From Bacteriovorax sp. (GTDB taxonomy: Bacteria > Bdellovibrionota > Bacteriovoracia > Bacteriovoracales > Bacteriovoracaceae), in assembly GCA_028710485.1 (NCBI GenBank), contig JAQTTZ010000015.1, forward strand, positions 1 through 56,984: a DNA stretch of 56,984 bases, written 5' to 3'. Position 1 is the first letter of the stretch. Each line of letters opens with the position of its first letter. The notes below the pieces were generated by a model that was given only the letters and a program-made list of their open reading frames with translations, had not been told where the DNA came from and did not search any database. Below are positions 4,012-22,192 of this stretch, in pieces. A program made the translations under genes and the position numbers.

Positions 4012-4146
4012 ATGCTCAGTGCTCTAATTAAAAGATTTTTTACAAATAAGGTACATTTTTTCGACATGAAAGAGGAAAAAGAATATTCTTTATACCACGA
4101 ACTTCATAAATATGATGGTCGTCTATCCGCTTTTAGACCATTTTAA
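4012..4146 (+). CDS. Small 44-residue protein, unknown
   Basis: An ATG with a strong AAGGAGAG ribosome site 6 bases upstream opens a 44-codon frame that starts MLSALIKRFF and ends DGRLSAFRPF. It is too short for standard ORF cut-offs. The product is basic at the N-terminus, acidic-lysine rich in the middle and aromatic at the end. The gap to the next gene on the same strand is 14 bases, so the two are probably co-transcribed. No family is recognised. Confidence 0.55.
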   Translation: MLSALIKRFFTNKVHFFDMKEEKEYSLYHELHKYDGRLSAFRPF

Positions 4147-4160
4147 ATATTAGTGAGTCC

Positions 4161-4547
4161 ATGGAAATTAAAAGAAGTTTTAAAGTCAATTCCCAGCTCT
4201 TGCCAAAAGAATTTCCTCGAGATTTTGATGCTCATGTTTATTTTAATGAGTTAACTTTTAAGAAAGCTGAAAATCTTCATGCTTTAATGATTGAAACCTT
4301 TCAAGGACAGAAAGTTTTTGTTGGACAAATGATCAACCAATCCATTGGCCCTCATCCCACCGGGATGTTTGAAGCGAATTTTCCAGTTAAACTTTTTGCT
4401 GATGTTGTTTTATGGTTAATGAAGGAACACGAGGAATTATCAGTACTCATTCATCCTCTAACCGGCAACGATTATATCGATCACTCGGGCCAAGCGTTAT
4501 GGCTTGGGATCACTCTCCCTCTAGATTTTTCAAAATTCACTTTATAG
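4161..4547 (+). CDS. DOPA 4,5-dioxygenase family protein
   Basis: The 128-residue product carries the pattern of the small DOPA dioxygenase family: DAHVYF near the start, IGPHPTGMFEANF in the middle and VLIHPLTGNDYIDHSGQALWLG near the end (written in two parts, about residues 91-112). The conserved histidines (in DAHVYF, GPHP, IHP and DHS) are the expected metal ligands. Family members open catechol-type rings with a non-haem metal; the bacterial substrate is generally unknown. It follows the 44-residue gene at 4012 closely and lies upstream of a cation exporter. Confidence 0.72.
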   Translation: MEIKRSFKVNSQLLPKEFPRDFDAHVYFNELTFKKAENLHALMIETFQGQKVFVGQMINQSIGPHPTGMFEANFPVKLFADVVLWLMKEHEELSVLIHPLTGNDYIDHSGQALWLGITLPLDFSKFTL

Positions 4548-4608
4548 CGTCCACGCCATACTATATGATTGCTTAGGCTCAATTTTACTTCCACGACGGA
4601 CAAGATGT

Positions 4609-5580
4609 ATGCACGAACACCACCATAATTGTACTCATGACCATTCTTTGGAAAAAAATTCGCATTCACATAAACACCATCACCATCACCATCATGGACC
4701 CAAAAATTATAATGTTGCTTTTATTTTTGGAATTACCCTCAATTCACTATTTGTGATCATTGAAGGTTTTTACGGCTACTTCTCCAACTCTCTGGCCTTA
4801 ATGGCCGATGCTGGTCACAATTTAAGTGATGTGGCCGGATTAATTATTGCTTGGGGAGCTATCTGGCTTGCCACTAAAAAACCTACAAGTAATTATACTT
4901 TTGGACTTAGAAAATCATCTATTCTCTCGGCACTTTTCAACGCCATTTTTTTAATGATTGCCGTAGGTATTATTATTTGGGAAGCACTTCACCGCTTATG
5001 GGTCCCAAGTCTTGTTATCGAATATAAAATGGTTATCATTGTGGCGGGTATTGGGATTGTCATTAATTCGATTACCGCCTTATTGTTTTTTAAAGATAAA
5101 GACCACGATTTAAATATTAAAGGCGCCTACCTCCATATGGCAGCTGACGCCCTTATCTCTGCTGGCGTAGTTCTGTCTGGAGTCATCATATCTTATACGT
5201 CATGGAACTGGGTTGATCCTTTGGTCAGTATCGTTATTTCGTTCATCATTATTTATGGGACATGGGATTTACTCAAAAATTCGATGCGCCTATCAATGGA
5301 TGCTGTTCCGCTGGATATAGATCCTCTAGCTGTAAAGAAATACCTCGAAAGCATTGACGATGTTGTGGAAGTTCATGATCTTCATATTTGGGCGATGGGC
5401 TCAACAGAAACGGCCCTCAGTGCACATCTCACCGTAAAAAAGCACTCATTGGAAAATACACAATTGGCCAAAATTTCAACTGACCTTCAAAATAAATTTA
5501 AAATTCACCATCCCACTATACAAGTCGAATTTTATGAAGAGAACTTTCACTGCCATTTAAAACCAGAGGATGTCCTTTGA
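4609..5580 (+). CDS. Cation diffusion facilitator (CzcD/ZitB-like divalent metal exporter)
   Basis: Residues 2-30 are a histidine-rich metal-binding leader with a run of seven histidines. Six transmembrane segments follow (about 35-220). The metal-site motifs of CDF proteins are visible: ALMADAGHNLSD in helix 2 and HMAADALIS in helix 5, giving the HD-HD tetrahedral zinc site. A C-terminal cytoplasmic domain follows with VHDLHIWAMGS. Length (323) is typical. These proteins export zinc, cobalt or cadmium using the proton gradient. The MscS-family channel gene starts 25 bases downstream, so they are probably co-transcribed. Confidence 0.93.
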   Translation: MHEHHHNCTHDHSLEKNSHSHKHHHHHHHGPKNYNVAFIFGITLNSLFVIIEGFYGYFSNSLALMADAGHNLSDVAGLIIAWGAIWLATKKPTSNYTFGLRKSSILSALFNAIFLMIAVGIIIWEALHRLWVPSLVIEYKMVIIVAGIGIVINSITALLFFKDKDHDLNIKGAYLHMAADALISAGVVLSGVIISYTSWNWVDPLVSIVISFIIIYGTWDLLKNSMRLSMDAVPLDIDPLAVKKYLESIDDVVEVHDLHIWAMGSTETALSAHLTVKKHSLENTQLAKISTDLQNKFKIHHPTIQVEFYEENFHCHLKPEDVL

Positions 5581-5605
5581 AAAAAGTCAAAAATGGAGAA
5601 CGTAA

Positions 5606-6661
5606 ATGAAAGACCAATGGATACCACTAGAAAAAATTCAATACCTGATCCAGCTTGAATCTTTTGCCCTCCTTTGGGTTTTGCTCATTATTGCTTTTAT
5701 CTTTTATAAAATTTTACTTAAAAAAATAACAGATAAGCGCCACGCAAATTTGCGCCAAAGATTCGGACGAACTTTAATTTACCTTATCATCACCACGCTT
5801 ATTTCAGTCTTACACTGGGTCATGTTTGAAAATGCTTATCAGGCCAGCAATGAGTATCATCTGGTAAAAATCGCAAGCTATTTAAGTTTATTTGCCCTTA
5901 CTTTTGAAGTGATTAGTTCCATCAAACTAGCGCAAATTTATGTGTATCTTTATTTATTTTTAATGAATATGAGCGTCGGGGTACCCCGCCTGATTGCCAA
6001 TATATTTACCCTCGTTTTTTCACTGGTGATCGTAAGCTGGCTGGCAGCTGATGTCTTTGGCTTTCACCTGGCCGCAGTTCTTGCGACTTCAGCAGTCTTT
6101 TCTTTAGTCCTAGGTCTCGCTCTTCAAGATACCCTCGGAAATTTATTTTCAGGAGTTGCTTTGCAGATTGACCGTCCCTTTAATATTGGAGACTGGATTG
6201 AAATGCATAGCGGATCAGAAAAATGGACAGGACAGGTTCAAGAGATAAGCTGGCGAGCTACAACCCTACTGGGATTTGCTGATGAGTTAATCTTAATTCC
6301 TAACCGTATTATTGCTCAATGCCAATTGCTTAACTTCTCCCACCTTCAGAAACCTGCTCGCTTAAATCAAATGTTTCGTTTTCATTTTGATGTCTCTATC
6401 GACAATGCCCGGAAGGCATTGCTTGAAGGGATAGCTAATGTCCCAGAAATTCTGGAGGATCCGGCACCACGCACACTGATTACGGAAGTAACTGAGTCAT
6501 GGATAACCATTAAAGTATTTTATTCTTTAAAAGACTATGGAACTCGTTACAGAACCGGTGATATTGTTATCTCGCAAATTCTCGACAGGATTCGCTGGCA
6601 TAAATTAACTCTGGCCGGCCCTACTCTTAATCTAGTGAGATCAAAAACAGACGAGATATAG
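5606..6661 (+). CDS. MscS-family mechanosensitive ion channel
   Basis: The 351-residue product has about five transmembrane segments followed by the MscS pore-lining helix and beta domain. The signature is plain: LGLALQDTLGNLFSGVALQIDRPFNIGDWI, seen as consecutive blocks at about residues 170-198, followed by an RATTL and LIPNRI strand pair. MscS channels release solutes on osmotic downshock. GGAG lies 7 bases before the ATG. It sits between a metal exporter and a universal stress protein, a membrane-stress context. Confidence 0.92.
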   Translation: MKDQWIPLEKIQYLIQLESFALLWVLLIIAFIFYKILLKKITDKRHANLRQRFGRTLIYLIITTLISVLHWVMFENAYQASNEYHLVKIASYLSLFALTFEVISSIKLAQIYVYLYLFLMNMSVGVPRLIANIFTLVFSLVIVSWLAADVFGFHLAAVLATSAVFSLVLGLALQDTLGNLFSGVALQIDRPFNIGDWIEMHSGSEKWTGQVQEISWRATTLLGFADELILIPNRIIAQCQLLNFSHLQKPARLNQMFRFHFDVSIDNARKALLEGIANVPEILEDPAPRTLITEVTESWITIKVFYSLKDYGTRYRTGDIVISQILDRIRWHKLTLAGPTLNLVRSKTDEI

Positions 6662-6756
6662 AATATTTATATATATGTATTTGACAGTAAATAATTAAGT
6701 TTCCCAATGAGAAATTATAGGATTTAATTGCAGTAGCTACTCTAGTAGGGGGATTT

Positions 6757-7206
6757 ATGAAAAATATAGTTGTCTGCACTGATCTTAATCAAAACAGTCT
6801 TGATACTTTAAAAACTCTTAATCAAAGTCTAGATTTCAAAGATGCGACTCTCCACTTCATTCATGTTTTTGAAATTCATATGTATAATGCAGATATTGTT
6901 CCCGTTATTTTTCCAACAGAAGTCCAATATCCGGAAATTGAAAAAAGCACACTTGGTATTTTGGACAAACTCGCTAAAGATATTGGAGTAAAAAGTGATC
7001 AAGTTAAGTTAAAATGTTTTTTCTCACATTCTCGTGAAGAAAAAATTAGCAGTTATCTTAAAGAAGTTAACGCCAATATGGTGGTGGTGGCGACTCGAGG
7101 AAAACATGGCATAGAAGGATTTTTCTCAAGTTCGTTGGCTGACTTTCTTTGCAAGTATTCGCCATGTGATGTTTTAGTCATCCGACCTAAGAAGAGTACG
7201 ACCTAG
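6757..7206 (+). CDS. Universal stress protein (UspA family)
   Basis: The 149-residue product is a single Usp domain: VVCTDLNQNSLDTL at the N-terminus, a central FIHVFEIH strand, and the nucleotide-site motif ATRGKHGIEGFFSSSLADF with CDVLVIRP at the end. The GxxGxxGSxx-type loop is close to the ATP-binding version (GKHGIEGFFSSS). Start is supported by a GGGGG site before the ATG. Such proteins bind ATP and act in stress survival; the partner is unknown. Confidence 0.9.
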   Translation: MKNIVVCTDLNQNSLDTLKTLNQSLDFKDATLHFIHVFEIHMYNADIVPVIFPTEVQYPEIEKSTLGILDKLAKDIGVKSDQVKLKCFFSHSREEKISSYLKEVNANMVVVATRGKHGIEGFFSSSLADFLCKYSPCDVLVIRPKKSTT

Positions 7207-7330
7207 TCCGGTAGTCTTGATCTATAGCGGTGCTTAACTGAAAGATTATATAGGCATTCCTTCAAATGAAAGGCCACTCTATGTAGCGCTATACCTCTCT
7301 ATCTTGCCGATTTTCCCTCCCTTATTCCAC

Positions 7331-7347
7331 TGATTTGACCCAAATCA
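7331..7347. promoter_or_regulatory. 17-bp palindrome, candidate operator
   Basis: TGATTTG-ACC-CAAATCA has perfect 7-bp arms. It lies 8-24 bases before the GTG (or 23-39 before the ATG) of the next gene. It resembles an FNR/CRP-type dyad but no regulator can be assigned. Confidence 0.4.
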
Positions 7348-7354
7348 TCTTTAA

Positions 7355-8827
7355 GTGTTAAAATTAAGTATGGGAATTACCGTTATCGACCAGGGTCCTG
7401 AGTTGTATTGGTTCGTGAGCAACGCTCTCCTTCAAGACGAAATACCCCTCAAGCACCTGCAGAGTATTCAAGCAGGCGAGAAAAATATTCTTCTGGAACT
7501 TCCAGAAATTGTTATCATAAATGGCGATGATAAATCCCTAATCCCCGAACAATTTATTAGTAAAATGAGAAACCATGTTTTCGCGAGAAACACACTCTTC
7601 ATTGTAATGACTGCTGATACTTCCATCGAATTTAAAAAGAATCTGCTTATTGCAGGTGCAGGTCAAATACTTTATCGCGGCCGTGGCTATAGCCCATCTC
7701 CTAAATTTTTCTCCGCCCTAATTAAATGGTTCCTCAATAATAAAAATCCAGATGCTCAAATTTTTGACTACAAACCTGTTCCCTTTCCTAGTGAAGCAGA
7801 ATTTACGTCCTATGGACGAGTAGGATGGCTTTCACCAAGTCATTGTATGATAGAGGCCAACATAGATTTGATTCCCGGACAATCTATAGAAATAACAAAT
7901 TCATTGTTTGATGAACTAGACATTAAAAATGTAAAATTAGAATGTGTAGAAAAAAATAAAGTCGGTAGATACTATCAATACACTAATAGTATGCTTTGCA
8001 AAATAACATCGAAGGATCAGATAAGAGATCCCAAAAAAATAGAAGCATGGATTCAAAACAATCTTGATATCTCAAAACACAAACCTATTAAGGTTGTTTA
8101 CTTTGAAAATGATCCCGAATACCGCGATAAAATTAGACAAATGGTGAAAGCTGACAAGCGCTACTGTGCGCGTGGATATGCCAACCTAAAAGAATTTCAA
8201 GAAGTACTTGATTACCAACTTCCTCATCTCGTCTTAATCAACAGGGCATTGATCCAAAAGGATAAGGCCCAATTTGAATCAATGAGGGCCTTTGTTAAAT
8301 CTAATTTTTGTTATTGCGTAACATATGCCAATAGCGAATTATTTGGTGTTGAAGAATTTAAAAAAAATTATGAATTTGCTATGCATTCTCCAACTCCTAT
8401 CGACCTCCCCCTTCTTGAATCCATGATTCAAAAGCTAGAAGAGAAATTGCCGGAAAATTTAAAAACAGACGATAAAAAATTTTATCTAAACAAACACTCG
8501 CCTTACAGCCGAATAAATTTGCATGCTTCGTGCAAGCTCACTGAACTTGCCATAAATGGAGCTGGAGTCGAGTTGCCTTTTGGCATTAGTAATTTTTGCG
8601 CTTGTGAAATTTCCAGTAATTCTTTCGTTGTGGCCAATATGGGACGCACTCAATTCTTTAGATCTTTTATTAATAAGCCCAGTAATGACAGCTCTAAAGG
8701 AACATACCATCGACTAATCTTCATGGGACAAAATGTGAAGGACAACGATCTAGTTAAAGAGACCATTGAGCTCATCACAGAATATGGATACGAGCGATGG
8801 CTCAAAGGTGAAACTCGGCCTATTTAG
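7355..8827 (+). CDS. Protein with two degenerate receiver-like and two PilZ-like segments
   Basis: I do not recognise a named family. The 490-residue protein looks like a duplicated two-domain unit. Residues about 1-135 and 245-370 resemble receiver folds (the second begins IKVVYFENDPEYRDKI and has LPHLVLINRA in place of the phospho-acceptor strand), and neither has the aspartate pattern for phosphorylation. Residues about 150-235 and 385-480 resemble PilZ-like barrels (CKLTELAINGAGVELPFG) without the arginine motif that binds c-di-GMP. It is soluble and lacks a signal peptide. The start is uncertain: GTG at 7355 or ATG at 7370, neither with a clear ribosome site. A regulatory scaffold role is inference. 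Confidence 0.65.
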   Translation: MLKLSMGITVIDQGPELYWFVSNALLQDEIPLKHLQSIQAGEKNILLELPEIVIINGDDKSLIPEQFISKMRNHVFARNTLFIVMTADTSIEFKKNLLIAGAGQILYRGRGYSPSPKFFSALIKWFLNNKNPDAQIFDYKPVPFPSEAEFTSYGRVGWLSPSHCMIEANIDLIPGQSIEITNSLFDELDIKNVKLECVEKNKVGRYYQYTNSMLCKITSKDQIRDPKKIEAWIQNNLDISKHKPIKVVYFENDPEYRDKIRQMVKADKRYCARGYANLKEFQEVLDYQLPHLVLINRALIQKDKAQFESMRAFVKSNFCYCVTYANSELFGVEEFKKNYEFAMHSPTPIDLPLLESMIQKLEEKLPENLKTDDKKFYLNKHSPYSRINLHASCKLTELAINGAGVELPFGISNFCACEISSNSFVVANMGRTQFFRSFINKPSNDSSKGTYHRLIFMGQNVKDNDLVKETIELITEYGYERWLKGETRPI

Positions 8828-9439
8828 TTATCTGTGCAGAGCTGCGTATTTGTCTTCAGCATGTTTCCAATTCACAATATCCCACCAAGCTTGAACAAAT
8901 CCATTTCTTTCATTTTTGTATCTTAGATAGTAAGCATGCTCCCAAACATCCAGTACTAGAAGTGGCTGACCTTTTATCGGACTAGTATCCATTAATGGGT
9001 TATCGTGATTATGACTTTGGATAATTTGTAATTCCTGTTTCTCATCCAAGATAAGCCACACCCAACCAGAAGCGAAAAGATCAACCGCTGATTCACTGAA
9101 TTTTTTTTCAAATCCTTCCATTGTTTTCCATTTTTTTTCGATTCCTGCTCTTAGTGGCCCGATACAATCGCGATAATTTGGAGTCATAGAATTCCAAAAA
9201 AAAGTATGATTATAAAGTCCTCCTCCATTATTTTTAATCACTGGTTCATATTTAGAGATATTTGCAAAAAGTTGCTCTATTGTTTCCACCCCCTCGGTAT
9301 CGGTGTGCCCAATTGCCTCCATAAACTTCTCGTAATATTTTCGGTGATGTTTATTGTAATGAAGATCCATGGTTTGAGCATCAATACATTCGACCAGTGC
9401 ATTTAAGGCATAAGGAAGTTCCGGGAATTGAATTTTCAT
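8828..9439 (-). CDS. Iron/manganese superoxide dismutase
   Basis: The enzyme converts superoxide to oxygen and hydrogen peroxide. With the ATG at 9439 (GAGGAG eight bases upstream) the protein is 203 residues. The four metal ligands are in place: H27 (in LHYNKHH), H78 (in GGGLYNHTFFW), D164 and H168 (in LDVWEHAYYLRYKN). A start six codons further upstream has no better ribosome site and I reject it. The second-sphere position that is glutamine in E. coli Mn-type enzymes (NQD) reads N144-H145-D146 here, so metal preference cannot be read from the usual rule. No signal peptide, so cytoplasmic. Confidence 0.93.
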   Translation of the reverse strand: MKIQFPELPYALNALVECIDAQTMDLHYNKHHRKYYEKFMEAIGHTDTEGVETIEQLFANISKYEPVIKNNGGGLYNHTFFWNSMTPNYRDCIGPLRAGIEKKWKTMEGFEKKFSESAVDLFASGWVWLILDEKQELQIIQSHNHDNPLMDTSPIKGQPLLVLDVWEHAYYLRYKNERNGFVQAWWDIVNWKHAEDKYAALHR

Positions 9440-9641
9440 AAAGACTCCTCTGTTCAAATTTATTGGATGCTGACATTAAAAACTCAATTCGAAAAATAGT
9501 TTTAACCTAACAAACTTATCGAATTGGTACATCATTTTAGATTATCGAAGATATTGATATTTTATATTTTTTTTAGGCAAGGCTTTAGTGCACTTTGATT
9601 AATGAAATTTATTAAAAAATTACCTTCCAGGGGAGTTGTCC

Positions 9642-9818
9642 ATGATAAAAGTAAACAAAATTAAAAATCAGATGAGAACAAGCTCGCAAAAGACTGATGT
9701 AAAAAAAGAAGTTTGTGATTCTAAGATTAAAGAAATGCAAGAACGAGACTTCAAGGCAAGACAGTCAAGAGAAGATGATATTCAAATCGAACAATCTAAA
9801 ATTAGAAAGACTAAATAA
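9642..9818 (+). CDS. Small highly charged protein, unknown
   Basis: A strong AGGGGAG site six bases before the ATG opens a 58-residue frame made almost only of K, R, E, D, Q and S. It should be helical or disordered and is likely cytoplasmic. A TTG two codons earlier is less likely because it touches the ribosome site. No family recognised. It is the first of several small charged proteins in this patch. Confidence 0.5.
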   Translation: MIKVNKIKNQMRTSSQKTDVKKEVCDSKIKEMQERDFKARQSREDDIQIEQSKIRKTK

Positions 9819-9970
9819 GAAAACATCCGATTTCGGACCTTACATATTCTCACATCAGTATTGTTTGTAACTATATTATAATGAAATCCTGACTATCCTC
9901 TACCTATTCAAGCCGCTTGTGTTAGTCTAAATTATACATGTGCAATAACTCCACGAAGGAAGCATTGATT

Positions 9971-10846
9971 ATGAAAAGTGCAAAGAATAAAATCTTTTTC
10001 TCAATTTTTCTTCTTTTTACTTTATCTTTTAATAATTTGGCACTGGCTAAAATTGAAATTGTCCTCGGTAGCACTCCTCTCGATGGAAATCCGAATCTAG
10101 CGCAAAAAGTCCCTGTTAACGAGGCAAGTGAAATTATCATTTCAAGAGACCAATACGTGATCTCTTATAATAAACTTCGCCGTTCTCCAAATTGGACTGC
10201 ATGGAAACTTGAACTAGATCAAATTGGAAATTCTGGTCGCTCTAATAATTTTTTACAAGATATTGATTTAGAAAACTACTTAAACCAGTCTCCTCAGAAT
10301 CTTCATGCGGTCGATCCAACCGAGTACAAGGGAAGCTGTTTTGATCGCGGCCATCAAATTCCATCTGCAGATCGCACTGATTCCAAAGAAAATAATCAGA
10401 CGACTTTTTTCATGAGTAATATGATTCCTCAAACCCCCAACCTCAATCGAGTTAGCTGGGAACACCTTGAGCAATATACGCGTGATTTAGTCCAGAAACA
10501 GGGCAAAAAAGCCTATATCATTGCTGGTCCAATATACGATCAGGATTTTGGACTAATCGGTCCCAACAAAGATATTCCCATTCCCTCAAAAGATTTTAAA
10601 GTAATTATTATTCTTGATGCTAACCAGACTCCAGCTGACATCAATAATGACACCCCGATTATTTCGGTTATCATGCCAAATACGCTACAGGACGGCTCAA
10701 AACCATTGAGCGATATGAATCAACTTTGTAAGCCGCTCTCGCCGGGACCTCTTGATAGAAATGATTGGGTTAAATACAAAACGACCCTGTCGGAAGTGGA
10801 AACATTATCTGGATTTAAAATACTTTCAGTTAAAGCAAAAATATAA
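9971..10846 (+). CDS. Secreted DNA/RNA non-specific endonuclease (NucA/DRGH family)
   Basis: The product should be an exported sugar-non-specific nuclease. A signal peptide spans residues 1-25 from the ATG at 9971, which has AGGA upstream; an earlier frame start would bury it. The active-site block is clear: CFDRGHQIPSADRTD (DRGH at about residues 120-123), then TFFMSNMIPQTPNLNRVSW, where the asparagines complete the magnesium site, and a later IAGPIYD strand. Length (291) fits the family. In a predatory-type genome such enzymes digest host or environmental nucleic acid, which is inference. A strong hairpin terminator follows immediately. Confidence 0.9.
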   Translation: MKSAKNKIFFSIFLLFTLSFNNLALAKIEIVLGSTPLDGNPNLAQKVPVNEASEIIISRDQYVISYNKLRRSPNWTAWKLELDQIGNSGRSNNFLQDIDLENYLNQSPQNLHAVDPTEYKGSCFDRGHQIPSADRTDSKENNQTTFFMSNMIPQTPNLNRVSWEHLEQYTRDLVQKQGKKAYIIAGPIYDQDFGLIGPNKDIPIPSKDFKVIIILDANQTPADINNDTPIISVIMPNTLQDGSKPLSDMNQLCKPLSPGPLDRNDWVKYKTTLSEVETLSGFKILSVKAKI

Positions 10847-12337: not shown

Positions 12338-14506
12338 ATGCTTCATCTCCCGCCCCTTATACAAGATCTTGCAATCATTCTCATGGCCGCAGGGTTTGTT
12401 ACAATTCTTTTTCGTAAAATAGGTCAACCAGTTGTACTAGGATATATTATCGCAGGTTTTCTCGTCAGTTCTCATGTTTGGTTTTTACCAACAGTCTCAG
12501 ACCTTCCAAATATTCAAGTATGGGCCGAAATTGGAGTCATCTTTTTACTTTTTGCCTTAGGCCTGGAGTTTAGTTTCAAAAAATTAATTCGAGTAGGCGC
12601 AGCTTCATCTATAACTGCGGTTGTTGAAGTTTGTGGAATGGTTATTCTTGGATTTTTAAGTGGTGAATTTTTTGGATGGTCTACTATCGATAGTCTTTTC
12701 CTTGGTGGTATTTTAGCAATCTCTTCTACCACCATAATTATTCGCACTTTGGGGGAAAGTGGCATGAAAGGACGAGGATTTGTCGATTTTGTTTTCGGTA
12801 TTTTAATTATTGAAGACATGGTTGCCGTCTTACTGCTTGTGCTTCTATCAACAGTTGCCGTGACCAATCAATTTAATGGTGAAGAACTTATTTTCTCGAC
12901 ATTAAAACTTTTATTCTTTGTTATACTATGCTTTGTTTCTGGAATATTTATTCTTCCCACTTTACTTAAATATATTCGGAAAATCTTAACCGAAGAAATG
13001 CTCCTCGTTGTTTCTTTGGCGTTGTGTTTTTTGCTGGTGATACTTTCCACTCGTGCAGGCTTCTCCCCTGCTTTGGGGGCATTTATCATGGGCACAATCT
13101 TGGCAGAGACCAGCGAGGTCAAAAAGATAGAGCATTTAATTTTACCTGTTAAGGATTTATTTGCGGCGATCTTTTTTGTCTCGGTAGGTATGTTAATAAA
13201 CCCTAAAATTCTCATAGAGTATGGGTGGCAAATTTTTTTATTGACGTTACTTACAGTATTCGGCAAATTTTTCACCATTTTAATTGGGGCCCTAATTGCG
13301 CGACGAAGTTTGCGCCATTCAATTCAAGCAGGTTTAAGTCTTGCCCAGATTGGTGAGTTTTCATTCATTATTGCGGCACTGGGAATAAATCTAAAAGTAA
13401 CAAGCAATTTTCTTTATCCTATTGCCGTTGGAGTTTCGGTTATAACGACATTTATTACACCGTATTTAATTCGCAATATCGATCCTATATTTGTGTGGAT
13501 TGAAAAATGTTTACCGCTAATCAAGCGTGACACCATAAAGAAAAAAGTTCATCATTCAAATACTATTTTGGAAGAAAAAGAAAAATGGAAAAATAATATA
13601 TTTTCATCTTTGAGTTTCATCATTCTCAACGTGGTTATTATCCTTGCCATATTTTATTCACTTTACTGGACCTATTCGTACTTTAATGAATATATTAGCT
13701 TAGCGATAACTCTATTTATCTCTGCTCCATTTTTTTGGGCATTACTTCTGAGGAAAGCCTTTCCACTCTCTAAGAGTAAGAAAGACCGCATAACATTTGT
13801 TTGCGTAGAATCGATGCGCATAATTATAGTTTGTGCTTTATTTTGCTACTTAGCACTCCAATACTCACTCAGACCACTAATGATAACAATGGCCTTAATT
13901 GTAACCTTTATCCTACTCTTTTTATGTTCTCCTTTTTTAAAAATAATTTATAGCAAATTTGAAAAGCATTTTATTAGAAATTTTTTCGAAAAGGAAAGTT
14001 CAACTCAAGCTCCAACTTTTGGCCCTTGGGATGCTCATATTACTTATTTAGATATTCCTGCTGAATCTGAAGTAGCAGGAAAAACTCTACATGAACTTAA
14101 AATCCGTGAAACATTCGGTGCTTCTATCGCCCTAATTGAAAGAGGCCATCTATTTATAACGGCCCCTGGAAGAGATGAAAAACTTTTCCCAAATGACCGT
14201 GTGGCCGTTATTGGCGATGATGAAATGATCGGCAAACTAACTCATTTTTTAAAATCAACCAAAGTATTCACTCCTAATACCAAAGTTGAAAACTATGCTC
14301 TCCATAAAATTTTAGTAACTGACAAAATGTCCTTTGCTTTTAAGACAATTCGAAAATCAGGTATTCGCGAAAAAACAGACGGGTTAGTTGTCGGAATAGA
14401 GCGCCATGGGGAAAGAATTCTTAATCCTGATTCAATGCTTAAAATTCTGCCAGATGATTTAATATGGATTGTGGGCGATAGCTCAAAAATTGAGACAATG
14501 GATTAA
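12338..14506 (+). CDS. Kef/CPA2-type cation:proton antiporter with two C-terminal RCK_C-like domains
   Basis: Residues about 5-390 form the Na+/H+ exchanger fold with some 12 membrane segments; GYIIAGFLV, FALGLEFSF, the GxxLAxTSE-type block (MGTILAETSE) and SLAQIGEFSFII are characteristic of the Kef branch. Two more membrane segments lie at about 425-525. The C-terminus carries two consecutive TrkA_C (RCK_C) units: about 562-640 (AESEVAGKTLHELKIRETFG) and 645-722. There is no NAD-binding TrkA_N domain between membrane and RCK_C parts. Such carriers export K+ or Na+ against H+. RCK_C domains of Ktr and CpaA carriers bind c-di-AMP in Firmicutes, which matters because the converging operon contains a diadenylate-cyclase-like gene; the link is inference. 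Confidence 0.9.
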   Translation: MLHLPPLIQDLAIILMAAGFVTILFRKIGQPVVLGYIIAGFLVSSHVWFLPTVSDLPNIQVWAEIGVIFLLFALGLEFSFKKLIRVGAASSITAVVEVCGMVILGFLSGEFFGWSTIDSLFLGGILAISSTTIIIRTLGESGMKGRGFVDFVFGILIIEDMVAVLLLVLLSTVAVTNQFNGEELIFSTLKLLFFVILCFVSGIFILPTLLKYIRKILTEEMLLVVSLALCFLLVILSTRAGFSPALGAFIMGTILAETSEVKKIEHLILPVKDLFAAIFFVSVGMLINPKILIEYGWQIFLLTLLTVFGKFFTILIGALIARRSLRHSIQAGLSLAQIGEFSFIIAALGINLKVTSNFLYPIAVGVSVITTFITPYLIRNIDPIFVWIEKCLPLIKRDTIKKKVHHSNTILEEKEKWKNNIFSSLSFIILNVVIILAIFYSLYWTYSYFNEYISLAITLFISAPFFWALLLRKAFPLSKSKKDRITFVCVESMRIIIVCALFCYLALQYSLRPLMITMALIVTFILLFLCSPFLKIIYSKFEKHFIRNFFEKESSTQAPTFGPWDAHITYLDIPAESEVAGKTLHELKIRETFGASIALIERGHLFITAPGRDEKLFPNDRVAVIGDDEMIGKLTHFLKSTKVFTPNTKVENYALHKILVTDKMSFAFKTIRKSGIREKTDGLVVGIERHGERILNPDSMLKILPDDLIWIVGDSSKIETMD

Positions 14507-14514
14507 TAGGAAAG

Positions 14515-14889
14515 TTAGTGATTGCAATAGCGATTCACAATTCCGATGAGATCATCAATTTTAAACGCCTTGCTTAAATAATCCACATGAAAAGGTGTTA
14601 CTTGTTTTCCCAGGTCTTTTTCAGCAGAAAGAATAACAATTGGGATAGAGGCCAATTCAGAATCTTTGTCACTCTTAATTTTTGTTAAAAACTCCAGGCC
14701 ATTCATTGATGGCATCATGAGGTCGCAAAAAATTAATGCTGGTTTTATATCATGGGAAAGTATTTCAAGTGCTGCGCTTCCATCTTTGGCACAAAGAGAT
14801 TTATGCCCTAAAATTTCTAAAACTTTTTTGAGTGCGACTTGTACTTCTGGATCATCATCTATGATTAGAATTTTTTTTGATTTTTTCAT
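14515..14889 (-). CDS. Stand-alone response-regulator receiver (CheY-like)
   Basis: The 124 residues form one receiver domain with all key residues: the acidic cluster DDD (11-13), phospho-acceptor D56 in LIFCDLMMPSMNG, S88 in VILSAEK and K107. No output domain is attached. It is the third gene of an operon: the HPt gene ends two bases before its start. It should accept phosphate from the neighbouring HPt or a distant kinase. Confidence 0.92.
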   Translation of the reverse strand: MKKSKKILIIDDDPEVQVALKKVLEILGHKSLCAKDGSAALEILSHDIKPALIFCDLMMPSMNGLEFLTKIKSDKDSELASIPIVILSAEKDLGKQVTPFHVDYLSKAFKIDDLIGIVNRYCNH

Positions 14890-14891
14890 AA

Positions 14892-15212
14892 CTACTCAGA
14901 CTTAGCTTCATTTAAAAAGGTTTGAAATTCATCAACCACATTTGGAAGCTTTGTAATGTCTCCACTTTTAGCAGTAATTTCCAGACGAAGGCCAATCTCA
15001 CTTAATTGGGAAAAGCCATACAACCCCGCACTCCCTTTGATCTTGTGACCAATCTTTTGAATTTTCTCCAAACGATGTGTGTCTTTAATATCCTGAAGAG
15101 TGTTTTTAATTTCTTTGAGATCTTCAAAGCGTTTATCCAAATAATTTTTTCCTTGTGAGAAAAAATATTTTTCTATTTCATGAATTCTGTTCCCATTGGT
15201 ATCTGCTTTCAT
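14892..15212 (-). CDS. Histidine phosphotransfer (HPt) protein
   Basis: The 106-residue, all-helical product has the HPt site GHKIKGSAGLYGF with phospho-histidine H56. It is a free-standing phosphorelay shuttle. Its ATG overlaps the stop of the upstream DisA_N-type gene (4-base overlap at 15209-15212) and the receiver gene follows after two bases, so translation of all three is coupled. Which kinase feeds it is not visible in this window. Confidence 0.88.
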   Translation of the reverse strand: MKADTNGNRIHEIEKYFFSQGKNYLDKRFEDLKEIKNTLQDIKDTHRLEKIQKIGHKIKGSAGLYGFSQLSEIGLRLEITAKSGDITKLPNVVDEFQTFLNEAKSE

Positions 15213-16435
15213 TTTCCTACCTCAGATTTATCATCAAAACGTTTAAAAGGCCTGCATTCTATAGTAAAACAATTGGCAGAACGTAGAAGTGACTGGCAAA
15301 CTAAACAATTCAGATTAGTGTCTTTATTCCAATCGACGACATTAACTTGCTCCACAATTAATCTTTTTCCACAGTGCTGACAAATAACTTCATACGATGA
15401 ACTTGTGATGTCTTCTTGTTTTTCAGGAAGCATTTTTTTCAAATCATGAGCAGCTTTGTACGATGGATGAATTCTTAGGTTTGCAATATTAACCCCATCG
15501 GAGAAAATTGTAACGGGTCCATCACTCGAAACTGTTATAACTAAAGTATCAGAGAAATCATAAGAAAATCTTTGGGCCGAAGTGTGCCGAGTTCCCTTTA
15601 ATTCAGGTATGAGTCCTCTACTTTTATTTGAATTTTTTAAATGAATACCGGTTCGCGTAAACTTGCCTTCTGGATTTAAAAAAGTTGCTCCATCTATTTG
15701 AGAGAGAAAGTGACAAAAGGTAACAGCGCGAGCTTCATCTAATATCGAAAAATTGAATTCTGAAATATCTTGTCCTGTTGTCTGAATTTCAGAATCTACA
15801 AAAGGTATTTCTTTCAACCACCAAACAATTGTGGCGCCGACTTGAGGTATAGGACTTAACAAGTGAAATGAAAATTCAAGAATACGATTTAAAACTGCGT
15901 GATTTATCTCAGAGGCACAACGTGAAATTTTCCACGCAGCTTCTTTGATAAGAGGTTTTGTAAACCAGTTACGATTTTCTAAAATAATAATACTATTGCC
16001 CTGGAAAAATTTTACAATTCCAGTTGATCCTCTTTGGACGAACAGTCCTCCGGACGGCGGAAAAGCACGAACTAATAAAAGTTCATTTAGTAGAGGCTCT
16101 TTAAAATAAACTAATCCAAAAAATATTTCTTTTTCATACAAAAGAAAACAATCAACTCCATTGGCAAATTTACGTGCCATGCTTATTTGTTCGAAATGCA
16201 CCAGAACGTATTCAACTCCAAATAATTCTGAAGACTCTTCAACAAACATGACTCCCTCTGAAGGAATAATTCCCTCATGCGCCTCGCTTGCTACAATTAA
16301 TGACAACTCGTAAAGAGTTGGATTCGAAGCCAGCCATTTGTGAAGATCAAAACGTATTCCATTAAGTTCTAGTTCTTTTGCTAGAAGTAACTGCATTTCA
16401 TTCTGACGATCAGAACTTGTTGCCAACGTCATCAA
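15209..16435 (-). CDS. DisA_N-domain (diadenylate cyclase-like) protein with N-terminal sensor region and C-terminal zinc ribbon
   Basis: Residues about 180-315 match the diadenylate cyclase (DisA_N) fold: LNRILEFSFHLLSPIPQVGA at the start, the catalytic D248-G249-A250 in QIDGATFL, a GxHL strand, then GTRHTSAQRF with R283-H284-T285 where characterised enzymes have RHR or RHx, and TLVITVSSDGPVTIFSDG. The enzyme would condense two ATP to c-di-AMP. Residues 1-175 are an unrecognised mixed domain, probably sensory. The C-terminus has C352-x2-C355 and C377-x2-C380, a zinc ribbon. It is the first gene of a translationally coupled operon with HPt and receiver genes. The DGA triad argues for activity; the Thr in RHT leaves doubt. 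Confidence 0.75.
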   Translation of the reverse strand: MMTLATSSDRQNEMQLLLAKELELNGIRFDLHKWLASNPTLYELSLIVASEAHEGIIPSEGVMFVEESSELFGVEYVLVHFEQISMARKFANGVDCFLLYEKEIFFGLVYFKEPLLNELLLVRAFPPSGGLFVQRGSTGIVKFFQGNSIIILENRNWFTKPLIKEAAWKISRCASEINHAVLNRILEFSFHLLSPIPQVGATIVWWLKEIPFVDSEIQTTGQDISEFNFSILDEARAVTFCHFLSQIDGATFLNPEGKFTRTGIHLKNSNKSRGLIPELKGTRHTSAQRFSYDFSDTLVITVSSDGPVTIFSDGVNIANLRIHPSYKAAHDLKKMLPEKQEDITSSSYEVICQHCGKRLIVEQVNVVDWNKDTNLNCLVCQSLLRSANCFTIECRPFKRFDDKSEVGK

Positions 16436-16524
16436 GACTCCTATAAAACTTAAGATAATAAATACACGCAGGATAAAATTGTCTCGTATGTATTACTTCT
16501 TTTTTCTAATCAAGAGGTGAAGCA

Positions 16525-16944
16525 ATGGTTGAACTTAAAAAAAGAATTGGTCGCTCCGTTTTCGTAGTAGAAGATGATCTTGAGCTCTCTACTGTGATTG
16601 ACCGTATTCTTATAAGTATCGACCCGACTCTCCATCTCGAATGGGCGACCACTGCCGAAGAAGCGATCGCTACACTGGTAAAAAGATCCAAAGAAAAAAA
16701 CAACAACCCTTATGATCTTATGATCTGTGACATTTTTTTAGAAGGAGCTAGAAATGGTCTAGACCTCTGGAAATTTTGTCACACACATTATCCTTCAATG
16801 AAGGTCGTGGTCATTTCCGGAATAGATCTTGAGAAACTTACCGAACTTCTTGACTCACATGAAGAGGTCCCTCTTTTCTTGAGCAAACCATTTTCAGTTA
16901 GTGATTGTAGTAATCTCTTAGAAAGTTTACTAGTCGTTCCGTAG
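16525..16944 (+). CDS. Stand-alone receiver-domain protein
   Basis: The 139-residue product is one receiver domain: VFVVEDDLEL with the acidic pair, the phospho-acceptor aspartate in LMICDIFLEGARNGLDLW, a serine in VVISGID and K in FLSKPFS. There is no output domain. It is transcribed away from the DisA_N-HPt-receiver operon across an 89-base shared control region, so it may belong to the same relay. AGAGGTG supports the ATG. Confidence 0.88.
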   Translation: MVELKKRIGRSVFVVEDDLELSTVIDRILISIDPTLHLEWATTAEEAIATLVKRSKEKNNNPYDLMICDIFLEGARNGLDLWKFCHTHYPSMKVVVISGIDLEKLTELLDSHEEVPLFLSKPFSVSDCSNLLESLLVVP

Positions 16945-17612: not shown

Positions 17613-19073
17613 TTAATTAATGAGCTCAGAAAGAGCTTTCTCTTTCTGATTTTTCTCAATTTTTTTTTGATAAATACAAGCAGGAACCACTCTGTCCTCG
17701 CAGTTTTCTTTTGGGCATCTCTCACAGGTTTGTCCAATCGAAATGCGCGAAAGAATCGGATCATCTAGAAATTTGATAACGCTTTTTAATTCTTCATTTA
17801 CTAAAAAACCAATCGTCAGAGACTGAAATGTATTTTCCTCAGTATTTGATTTTTTTGCGAGTGAAATGGAAAAATACTGTTGTCCATCTTCGACTATAGA
17901 GATCTGGCCTAAAAGACAATTATTATTCAGACCTTTTGAGAGTTGATTTTTTAGTTGCTGTAAACTCTTAATTGCAACCCATCGTCTGCAATAACTCTCA
18001 TTCATTCGCTGTCCATGAGGACTATGAAGTTGCGAGAGATGCAGCTCCTTGTTCATTGTAAAGTGTTCGACTTCGTCAACCTTAGTTGTGATGCCAAGAA
18101 AAAAGAGTTCATTCACTTTAAAATGTGATGGCAAGACTTGAGTTAAGCGGTGAAACATTAACTCTGAACTGACCTGATACTTGTCTATCAGAGAAAGAAA
18201 TAAATTCTGATCAAATTGTGAATTGGAAAAAAAGTTTTTCAGGTCTTTTGAAAACATTTTTTCTTCGAGTAGTATTGCACCTGCTAAATAACTGGCCTTA
18301 TAATCGTCTAAAAGTGCTCCTAGACTTTTCTCTAAGTTACCAAGTCCCAAAAGTCGATGCCCAATTTCTTTTGTTAAGTAAAAAGTTTTTTGACCAGTTT
18401 CAAGTTTTGAGTTCAGAAAAATTTTTGGAAGTTCAGATCGTTTCACTAAAACCTTAGTTTCCTCTAATAAGGAATTTGCAGCTAGAGTGTTTTCATCTAT
18501 TTCGTAGAGATATTGTTTTTTTATCAAAGAAGACATGTCTTCATAGCTAATACTTTCTTGAGTAAAATTCCAATCATTGCGCTTAATTTTGGCCATCTTC
18601 TCAAGTTCGGGAAAGTAATTATCATTGGCTTCAATGAAGGAGCGTAAGGCTGCATTGTAAATATCTTCCAATTTCATATCGAATGAGCGCGAGATTTGAA
18701 GAACTGTTAAAACAAAAGATGCAAATTTTTCAGGAGCATTTCCCATTAGGTCAACGACATCAGACTCACTTAAACCAAAAAGTTCAAGCGGCATTTTACT
18801 GACGAGATCACCTTCTAAAAACTTAAGTAGTGGATGTAGATTGCGTCCTGTTTTAAAAGAAACAAGGTCGCCTAGATCAACACCAAGGCCTAATGCCAGT
18901 GAAGCGAGTTTTTCAACTTTTGGATACTTTTTTCCTTTCTCTATTTCGTTGAGATAAGAAATTGAGAGGTCTGAGAGATCTGCTAATTCCTTCAAGGAAA
19001 AACCACGCCTCATCCGCAATTGGCGGATTTTTAAACCCAAAATAAACCTGAGGACGTTTTTTTTCTTCAACAT
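17613..19073 (-). CDS. XRE-family regulator of the RamB/ScfR type, probable controller of the glyoxylate enzyme
   Basis: Residues about 10-70 are an XRE helix-turn-helix (IRQLRMRRGFSLKELADLSD, ISYLNEIEKGKKYPKVEKL). The long middle has an HRLLGLG-like remnant of the IrrE/peptidase-like region (GHRLLGLGN), and the C-terminus has the short-chain-fatty-acyl regulator cysteine block GQTCERCPKENCEDR. The 486-residue layout matches RamB/ScfR regulators that sense acyl-CoA type signals and control isocitrate lyase or methylcitrate genes in actinobacteria. Here it is divergent from the malate synthase-isocitrate lyase gene, and the shared promoter carries regularly spaced AGCGAA sites. Regulation of that gene is strong inference. 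Confidence 0.85.
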   Translation of the reverse strand: MLKKKNVLRFILGLKIRQLRMRRGFSLKELADLSDLSISYLNEIEKGKKYPKVEKLASLALGLGVDLGDLVSFKTGRNLHPLLKFLEGDLVSKMPLELFGLSESDVVDLMGNAPEKFASFVLTVLQISRSFDMKLEDIYNAALRSFIEANDNYFPELEKMAKIKRNDWNFTQESISYEDMSSLIKKQYLYEIDENTLAANSLLEETKVLVKRSELPKIFLNSKLETGQKTFYLTKEIGHRLLGLGNLEKSLGALLDDYKASYLAGAILLEEKMFSKDLKNFFSNSQFDQNLFLSLIDKYQVSSELMFHRLTQVLPSHFKVNELFFLGITTKVDEVEHFTMNKELHLSQLHSPHGQRMNESYCRRWVAIKSLQQLKNQLSKGLNNNCLLGQISIVEDGQQYFSISLAKKSNTEENTFQSLTIGFLVNEELKSVIKFLDDPILSRISIGQTCERCPKENCEDRVVPACIYQKKIEKNQKEKALSELIN

Positions 19074-19178: not shown

Positions 19179-19255
19179 AGTGCTTATCATATCTCGAGCA
19201 ATAAACTTAACGTCTATTGAGTACCTTACAACCCAAAGTACAAGGAGGACCGTCC

Positions 19256-22192
19256 ATGAGCTATCATTCACTAAACGATTCTGTCCAGATTTCTAGTGGT
19301 GCCTTAAGCAATCGCTCTATAAAATTAATCGATATAGGCTTCCTGGATTTACTCACCAAACTTCACCGAAAGATGGAAATAAGGCGAAACCAATTACTGG
19401 CAGTCAGACGCAGACGGCTTGAGTCGTATGATCAAGGGGCCATTCCTCGCACCGAAATTTTAAATGAAAAATCAACTCTGCTAGACTGGAAAGTTGCGCC
19501 CATTCCAAATGATTTATTACTTCGAAGAGTTGAGATCACCGGCCCGGTTAATGACACAAAAATGGTCATCAATATGCTCTCGCGAAATAGCGAAGGCCTT
19601 AGAGCAGATATGGCGATGCTCGATTTTGAAGATTCTATGAAACCTTCTTGGAATAATATTATCGACGGTGTCTATAATGTTATTGGAGCTAGTCTTGGTG
19701 AACTTCACTACCAAAAAGATGATCAATCTAAAATATATAAAGTTGATCCAAAAGATATGGCCGGCCTCATGGTTCGAGTTAGAGGCTTACATCTGCAAGA
19801 AGTGAATATTAAAATTGATGGGCAATACGTATCTGCCGGTCTTTTTGATTTGGCCTTATGCTTTTATCATTCAGCTGCCAATCTTATCAAGGCCCATAAA
19901 ACTCCGAAATATTATGTCCCAAAAATAGAATACCCAATGGAAGCCTGGTGGTGGAATGATCTTTTTTGCCAGCTTCAAACCGAGCTTGGATACTCAATCG
20001 GAACTCTTCGCGCAACTTTTTTAATTGAAACTCTCCCCGCTGCTTTTAATATGGAAGAAATTCTTTATGAACTAAGAGAACATGTTGTCGGAATGAATGT
20101 CGGTAGATGGGATAAAATTTTCTCTGATATTAAAACTCTAAAAAATCATCCTTCCAGAATTAGTCCGGATCGTAGTGAGATAACCATGAAGAAATTCTGG
20201 ATGGAAAACTATGCTAAGAAATTAGTTAATGTTTGTCACCGTCGTGGAGCTTATGCCATTGGAGGAATGTCAGCTTTTACTCCCGGAAAAGATAGCGAAG
20301 TGAGAGCTCTACAAACTAAAAAAGTGATTGAAGATAAATCTAATGAATTTAAATTAGGACATGATGGTTGCTGGGTATCTCATCCCTATTTCATAGGCCC
20401 GGCGATGCAATGTTTCCCAAAATCAAATCAAGTTGATTTTATTGATGAGTCTTTTCCTGCTCATCCGCAACTCCTGATGGAAGGATCTGGACCACGAACA
20501 CTTGGTGGTTTAAAAATCAATATTCAAGTGGCGATTGCCTATTTATATGGACTAGCAAAAGGCTTAGGATGCGTGGCCCATAATAATATGATGGAAGACC
20601 TGGCCACTTTAGAAATTTCAAGGGCACAAGTTTGGCAATGGAATCACTACCAGATCACTCTCGATGAAGGTCTAGTTGTTAATGAGGCCTTAATTAAAGA
20701 TCTTTTCCAAAAAGAGCAAGAACCATTCTTGGTTGAGATTCTCAATAACCTTACCTTGTCTGATAAAGAAAAAATGAATGAGATTCATATTCTCAATAAA
20801 GCAGTTCTCGATGGAATGATTCTTTTTACATCAACTACGCTTGAACCATTTTTAACAACAACCGGCCCCTTGGAAATTTCATTCATCCACACATCTAATG
20901 GGAGAAATAAAATGGAAGAAGCTACTAAACTAGAAACACTTTGGGAAAAAGACAGAAGATGGAAAGGAATTACACGCGATTATTCTCCGGCAGATGTTTT
21001 AAAATTAAGGGGCTCTTACAAATTAGAGCATTCACTTGCAAGACTAGGAGCTGAAAATCTATGGCGCCTTTTAAATGAAGAAAACTATATCAACGCACTT
21101 GGGGCCTTAACTGGTAACCAAGCAGTTCAACAAGTAAGAGCTGGTTTAAAAGCAATCTATCTTTCCGGCTGGCAAGTTGCAGCTGACGCTAATTTGGCAG
21201 GAGAAATGTATCCTGATCAAAGTTTATACCCATCTGATAGCGTTCCTAATGTTGTTAAAAAAATCAATCAGGCACTTGTAAGAGCTGATCAAGTTGAAAG
21301 TGCTGAAGGTAATGTTACCAGAGAATGGCTTGCACCAATCATCGCTGATGCTGAAGCTGGTTTTGGAGGAGCACTAAATGCTTACGAATTGATGAAACAA
21401 ATGATCGCGGCCGGAGCTGCAGGGGTTCACTTTGAAGATCAACTTGCGAGTGAAAAAAAGTGTGGTCACTTAGGCGGAAAAGTTTTAGTTCCAATTTCTG
21501 AGTTTATTAAAAAATTAACAGCGGCAAGACTTGCGGCAGACGTTATGGATGTACCAACTTTAGTTATCGCCCGAACTGATGCCCAAGCAGCAACTCTGCT
21601 AACAAGTGATGTAGACCAAAGAGATCACAAGTTCTTAACTGGGGAGAGAACACCAGAAGGATTTTTTAGAATTAGAAATGGTATGGATATCGCTATCGCT
21701 CGCGGATTAGCTTACGCTCCTTATGCTGATTTAATTTGGTGTGAAACATCAACTCCAGATCTTGAAGAAGCAAGACTATTTGCTGAAAGCATTCATGCTC
21801 AATTTCCAAATAAAATGCTGGCCTATAACTGCTCACCATCTTTTAACTGGAAAAAGAAACTTGATGCTACGACGATCGCAAAATTTCAAAAGGAACTCGG
21901 TGCCATGGGATACAAATTCCAATTTGTAACCTTAGCTGGCTTCCATTCATTGAACTATTCAATGTACTCGCTTGCTTATCAGTATAAAACCCACGGAATG
22001 AGTGCCTACTCTGCTCTTCAAGAAAATGAATTTAGTGCTGAAGCAATCGGCTACACCGCAACTAAGCATCAACGTGAAGTTGGAACAGGTTATTTCGATT
22101 TAGTTTCAAACACTATCGGCCAAGGTCAATCATCGACTCTAGCCTTGAAGGGCTCAACTGAAGAAGAACAATTTTGTGGAGCTATGGCCTAA
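19256..22192 (+). CDS. Bifunctional malate synthase - isocitrate lyase fusion
   Basis: One uninterrupted frame of 978 residues encodes both special enzymes of the glyoxylate cycle. Residues about 1-545 are malate synthase [37 protein letters not shown] and [15 protein letters not shown] with the catalytic acid. Residues about 553-978 are isocitrate lyase: [34 protein letters not shown] with catalytic C736, ARTDAQAA and [12 protein letters not shown]. The AAGGAGG site before ATG 19256 sets the start; a longer frame upstream has none. An internal in-frame ATG at 20912, preceded by GGGAG, marks the domain boundary and could yield free lyase. Isocitrate is split and the glyoxylate joined to acetyl-CoA, so fusion could channel glyoxylate. 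A terminator follows. Confidence 0.93.

Follow-up and report, generated by a model that had tools for sequence, protein, structure and literature searches.

A contig of 56,984 nt from Bacteriovorax sp. (JAQTTZ010000015.1 of assembly GCA_028710485.1; its whole length is referred to here as the window) carries a gene for a protein of the diadenylate cyclase (DAC) family, located among genes for a stand-alone histidine phosphotransfer protein (HPt) and two single-domain receivers, RR1 and RR2. Judged by sequence comparison, this accessory DAC-family protein, one motif of which is altered, belongs with a receiver and an HPt to a conserved unit. The reading we favour, to which we give a probability of about 0.5, is that the protein is a phosphorelay-gated accessory enzyme acting beside the housekeeping cyclase CdaA, and of the possible mechanisms of the module we consider phosphorylation-dependent gating the most likely.

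The protein (termed the DAC protein below) is matched by PF02457 (DAC, or DisA_N) with 37 bits against a cut-off of 27. A preliminary description of this DNA had placed the DAC core and its coordinates correctly, including DGA at residues 248–250 and GTRHTSA at 281–287, and the DisA_N profile hit that it anticipated was obtained for the window protein and for all seven members of the family. The C-terminal zinc ribbon it reported (CxxC-x21-CxxC) is likewise present, with cysteines invariant in all seven, and C389 is a fifth invariant cysteine in this part of the protein. Its view of the N-terminal region as novel was mistaken, as this region matches DACNK (PF21753, 34.1 bits, cut-off 27), described in Pfam as a 'probable sensor domain'. 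DAC and DACNK were the only Pfam families matched in the seven members (both in 7/7, E 0.01), and no C-terminal helix-hairpin-helix was found among them; it is by this DNA-binding domain that DisA is defined. Hydropathy gave no sign of the N-terminal membrane helices typical of CdaA: the maximum over 19 residues is 1.39, compared to 2.35 in the CdaA of the same genome, and it remains below 1.6 in five of the seven members, the other two reaching 1.69 and 1.74 near residues 56–60, inside DACNK. AlphaFold2 models from three-row alignments had a mean pLDDT of 32 (whole protein) and 44 (DAC part), and a fold search with them gave no match at E 0.001. By sequence, the best DAC chain among solved structures scored E 0.43 (protein) or 0.014 (profile), and the DAC fold is here predicted from the profiles alone.

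The DGA, GTRHTS and zinc-ribbon residues are unchanged in all seven members, the lowest identity to the window protein being 37%. Invariant positions of the DAC part are D248-G249-A250-T251, G281-T282-R283-H284, T285, S286, R289, S303, D305, G306 and P307. The dN/dS ratio (nonsynonymous to synonymous substitution rates) of the DAC gene is 0.08 relative to its nearest relative, locus L001, and 0.07 and 0.14 relative to L002 and G014, comparisons that are near synonymous saturation. Since the motifs persist down to 37% identity with a dN/dS of 0.08, they are not due to chance, and both measures speak for a function that has been kept, whatever that function may be.

Members of the family are few. 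Among 368 genomes of the phylum, representing 181 genera, the DACNK profile matched seven, and a second profile, made from the complete sequences of these proteins, found the same seven. Four belong to the 14 genomes of the window's genus (G000, G009, G013, G014) and three to the 13 genomes of one family in another class (G304, G310, G312). Identity to the window DAC protein is 90% in L001 (the contig of G009), 79% in L002 (that of G013) and 71% in G014, then 46% in G304, 44% in G312 and 37% in G310. RR1 is the divergent neighbour of the DAC gene at all seven loci, and its D69, S98 and K121 are invariant. When the window RR1 was used as query against 20 genomes, all seven genomes with a DAC protein gave E 3e-26 or better, always at the DAC locus, while the 13 without one gave 4.6e-5 or worse. 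A Pfam Hpt protein is encoded downstream of the DAC gene at 7/7 loci. It is the next gene in the window, L001, L002, G014 and G304, whereas one OmpR-type regulator intervenes in G310 and two receivers do so in G312. In each of the three distant genomes no other HPt matches better. H56 and G60 are invariant among the seven aligned HPt proteins, and the alignments show the residues of a His-Asp phosphorelay to be present throughout the window's set (HPt H56; RR1 D69 and K121; RR2 D56 and K107), which, from general knowledge, we take to be those active in phosphotransfer.

The genes are closely packed, as the preliminary description had noted. The DAC and HPt frames share ATGA (15209–15212), a four-base overlap found also in L001 and G014 (the gap is 21 bases in L002 and 46 bases in G304), and two bases separate the HPt and RR2 genes. 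The second lone receiver that it saw on the divergent side is RR1, which begins just outside the range it covered (12338..16435). Of the neighbourhood it proposed, the tie to receiver and HPt holds across two classes, while the tie to a Kef carrier fails, being present at three of seven loci.

Receivers of the broad type to which RR1 belongs are widespread, the RR1 profile finding them in 99 of the 368 genomes (E 1e-9). Seven RR1-like loci were opened in genomes lacking the DAC protein (G318, G321, G199, G245, G356, G176, G173), and in five of these a hybrid kinase (HisKA, HATPase, REC, HPt) is encoded within 3.3 kb of the receiver, at distances of 32 bases (G356), 0.2 kb (G199), 1.6 kb (G318), 1.7 kb (G245) and 3.3 kb (G321). 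This indicates that the receiver type accompanies HPt phosphorelays, from which we infer that RR1 takes phosphate from an HPt. The module core would have three parts, a soluble DACNK-DAC-zinc-ribbon protein, a dedicated RR1 and a stand-alone HPt, with RR2 added in the window. A kinase encoded elsewhere would charge the HPt, which would hand its phosphate to RR1, RR2 serving as an intermediate or sink; phosphorylated RR1 would then bind the DAC protein and switch its nucleotide chemistry, so that a gated signal is added on top of housekeeping CdaA.

The DAC-less loci with a hybrid REC-HPt kinase near an RR1-like receiver are L078, L079, L080, L081 and L082. At L082 (G356) four RR1-like receivers lie within about 3 kb (6475–9570) and adjoin a hybrid kinase (4053–6443) whose N-terminal domain is ETR1_N (ethylene-receptor-like). 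When the sensor part of the kinase in G199 was used as query, further matches came from G318, G321 and G320, in the last of these on a contig other than that of the receiver. This sensor part had no match in the seven genomes with a DAC protein or in five DAC-less genus mates, other hybrid kinases not having been sought.

Several observations weigh against a phosphorelay-gated enzyme. The seven DAC-linked receivers score 218–243 bits with the RR1 profile and the next best elsewhere 150, but the profile was built from the very seven it favours, and no more than ten candidates were scored in any genome; in a 20-row tree the seven group together with moderate support (80/87). Two of the opened DAC-less loci lack a nearby hybrid kinase: G176 has, 4.5 kb from the receiver, a gene for an HPt and a partial kinase with HATPase and REC, and in 12 kb of G173, where all open reading frames save one were read by eye, neither an HPt nor a kinase was found. 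No kinase gene lies between Kef and RR1 in the window, and in the rest of the genome only the G199 kinase sensor part was sought, with no match. Across the two classes the HPts match each other weakly (E 7e-8 to 8e-5), and better scores are reached by HPts of some genus mates that lack the DAC protein (1.8e-9 in G016, 3.2e-9 in G010); what is conserved is thus the place of the HPt gene and the domain it encodes, and orthology is not clear. The alignment revealed no clear RR2 orthologue at the distant loci. These loci (G304, G310, G312) are rich in two-component genes anyway, and hold further receivers, kinases or NtrC-type regulators. Finally, the RHR motif of diadenylate cyclases reads RHT in 7/7 members, for which reason the protein is filed here as a DAC-domain protein and not as a proven diadenylate cyclase. 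Replacement of RHR by AAA abolishes the activity of Mycobacterium tuberculosis DisA (PMC3328451), Mycoplasma bovis CdaM (PMC13022847) and Bacillus thuringiensis CdaS (PMC4568413), mutants that change the whole motif and not the third residue alone. A motif essential in three studied cyclases thus appears in altered form in every member. By our reading of the alignment, residue 304 stands opposite Glu223 of Listeria CdaA; the three distant members have Glu at this position, but the four from Bacteriovorax have Ser.

Asp171, Thr202 and Glu223 of Listeria CdaA were kept flexible in active-site docking (PMC10167629), and the counterparts of the first two, the DGA aspartate and the GTRH threonine, are retained in 7/7 members. 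The Gly of DGA is reported to be dispensable in M. tuberculosis DisA (PMC3328451). For comparison, 42 CdaA-type proteins were taken from the fetched loci (30 best, 11 others and the window genome's own), picked by DGA and GTRH/GMRH; hhalign sets the DAC-protein motifs opposite the corresponding motifs of CdaA, and all 42 carry HDGA, GTRHRAA and SEE. Cyclase activity of the DAC protein is possible on these grounds, and the chance that cyclic di-AMP (c-di-AMP) is its product is about even at best.

The motif changes also bear on a doubtful alternative, in which the DAC domain has lost cyclase activity and is either a scaffold for the receivers or a receptor that signals to them on binding a nucleotide (ATP, ADP or the c-di-AMP produced by CdaA). 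The replacement of RHR by RHT in 7/7 members, the lack of His before DGA and the change of SEE to S[S/E]D count in its favour, as does the presence of HDGA, GTRHRAA and SEE in 42/42 CdaA-type proteins. A ligand source is also at hand: a separate CdaA is encoded elsewhere in the window's own genome, and CdaA-type matches occur in G000, G009, G014, G310 and G312. Against this alternative stands the invariance of DGA, GTRH and the acidic residue 305. Moreover, G304 (L014; assembly 93% complete) and G013 (84% complete) gave no CdaA-type match, the DACNK-DAC protein being the sole DAC found, so that a source of c-di-AMP would be missing there unless it fell in an assembly gap.

Alternatively, the product of the altered site may be something else, such as a dinucleotide other than c-di-AMP, a linear dinucleotide or a compound derived from another nucleoside triphosphate. 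The invariance of T285, S286, R289, D305, G306 and P307 in all seven is what a new specificity predicts and not what decay would leave, but there is no positive evidence for another product and no relative of known product was found, and we consider this quite unlikely. A fuller version, also unlikely, would make these proteins a family of synthases of signalling nucleotides, which a phosphorelay controls by way of a dedicated stand-alone receiver and whose re-tooled site (GTRHTS, S[S/E]DGP) makes a second product in addition to c-di-AMP or in its place. The odds of the readings overlap, as another product could be phosphorelay-gated too, and need not sum to one.

The preliminary description had joined the DAC protein, the phosphorelay and the converging Kef carrier in a single c-di-AMP/K+ circuit. 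The carrier is indeed of the type described, with a Na_H_Exchanger domain and two TrkA_C (RCK_C) stretches; it adjoins the DAC locus in the window, L001 and L002, each of the four genus members with a DAC protein has a Kef match somewhere, and RCK proteins elsewhere bind c-di-AMP (PMC12453120, and a cited title on CpaA_RCK). The survey nevertheless makes such a circuit highly improbable. Kef is not adjacent at 4/7 loci: it is absent from the DAC locus of G014, where the best match (43%) lies at the end of another contig, and G304, G310 and G312 have no match at E 0.001. Full-length Kef proteins of 48–64% identity are found in five DAC-less genus mates (G004, G005, G006, G010, G015), and of the remaining mates G012 has pieces, G008 a weak match, and G007, G011 and G016 none. 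The association within the genus is not significant (4/4 genomes with the DAC protein vs 5/10 without; Fisher p 0.22, or 0.25 counting G012). In G015 (L084), Kef stands beside endonuclease and LysR genes like those near Kef in L001 or the window; on its other side, at a place that the module might occupy, there is an MgtE/CBS gene (8691–10016) and no DAC module. Kef as a part of the module is rejected on these data, and control of Kef by the DAC protein is unlikely.

The patchy distribution of the DAC protein, in 2 of 181 sampled genera, would suit genes that merely move or stay together with no common mechanism. This we regard as very unlikely, as the divergent arrangement of the DAC and RR1 genes persists even where DAC identity falls to 37%, although most of the other neighbours, Kef among them, are different. 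Between the classes, identities of the DACNK-DAC protein and of CdaA are similar (44 vs 42% for G312, 37 vs 41% for G310) and give no clear sign of block transfer; they do not separate transfer from shared ancestry with many losses, and either may apply. No relatives of the DAC protein were found in plasmids, phages or viral contigs, and a pattern scan of an 84,980-species collection, which reaches close relatives only, gave two. A role in defence was considered and rejected: PADLOC matched neither the HPt nor RR1, nor the DAC protein of the window or of G304, and gave two weak matches for RR2 (E 0.0007 and 0.0016).

The features of the locus are collected in Table 1. The listed start of the DAC gene is TTG at 16435 (408 aa), but the ATG at 16432, which follows AGGAG by five bases, is the likelier one. 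Two simple promoter searches found no pattern in the divergent region of the window; across the divergent regions of the family, each loose pattern had one chance-like match, both in G312 only.

Table 1. Gene order and features of the DAC locus and its Kef neighbour, window positions 12338–16944.
Feature	Position	Strand	Basis and remarks
Kef-type carrier, two TrkA_C (RCK_C) stretches, Na_H_Exchanger	12338..14506	+	Pfam; converging neighbour, judged outside the module
RR2, single-domain receiver	14515..14889	-	Pfam Response_reg, alignment
HPt protein, stand-alone	14892..15212	-	Pfam Hpt, alignment, ATGA overlap
DACNK-DAC-Cys4 ribbon protein, 407 aa from ATG	15209..16432	-	Pfam, motifs
DAC protein domains: DACNK 46-161, DAC 198-314, C352/C355/C377/C380	residue numbers from TTG		Pfam, motifs
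Divergent intergenic region, 92 bases	16433..16524	.	between DAC and RR1 genes
RR1, divergent single-domain receiver	16525..16944	+	Pfam, alignment; companion of the DAC gene in 7/7 loci

To the left of the locus (5606–9457) are genes for an MscS channel, a universal stress protein, a 490-aa protein with no Pfam match and a superoxide dismutase, the first three of which, by sequence as read, also adjoin the DAC locus of G014 (L012). On the other side, malate synthase and isocitrate lyase are fused in one protein of 991 aa (19217–22192), adjoined by an HTH/IrrE/ScfR-type regulator (17613–19073).

A DAC protein with the same receiver at all seven loci, together with an HPt, would tie c-di-AMP-type to two-component signalling. 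The regulation of diadenylate cyclases is described as still poorly understood (PMC8573169). The module is a small and testable system, and its invariant motif change raises the question of the role of the third residue of RHR. Among the titles listed on DAC proteins, c-di-AMP, Bdellovibrio or Bacteriovorax, none shows this arrangement, although the Galperin 2023 survey of DAC proteins may mention it, and no literature was found under the names DACNK or DACNV.

Among known systems, the DS-2 anti-phage DAC (NF053872) has a DAC region that the window protein matches weakly (14.4 bits, cut-off 630); PADLOC gives no match for this protein, the HPt or RR1. The window Kef resembles the RCK_C transporters that bind c-di-AMP (KtrA, CpaA) in its TrkA_C domains, but the DAC–Kef neighbourhood is not conserved and binding by this carrier is only putative. 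The protein shares the DACNK plus DAC architecture known to Pfam, the name of which reportedly stems from the Galperin survey; compared within one phylum, its own traits are RHT, the C-terminal zinc ribbon and the constant company of RR1 and HPt. From CdaA (DacA), with which it has the DAC family, DGA and GTRH in common, it differs in lacking strongly hydrophobic N-terminal helices and in having GTRHT for GTRHR, no H before DGA, and S[S/E]D for SEE. The relay part resembles the hybrid kinase-REC-HPt systems with a single-domain receiver, RR1-like receivers being found near HPt domains at five of the seven opened loci; in the window, however, the HPt has a gene of its own and RR1 is next to the DAC protein.

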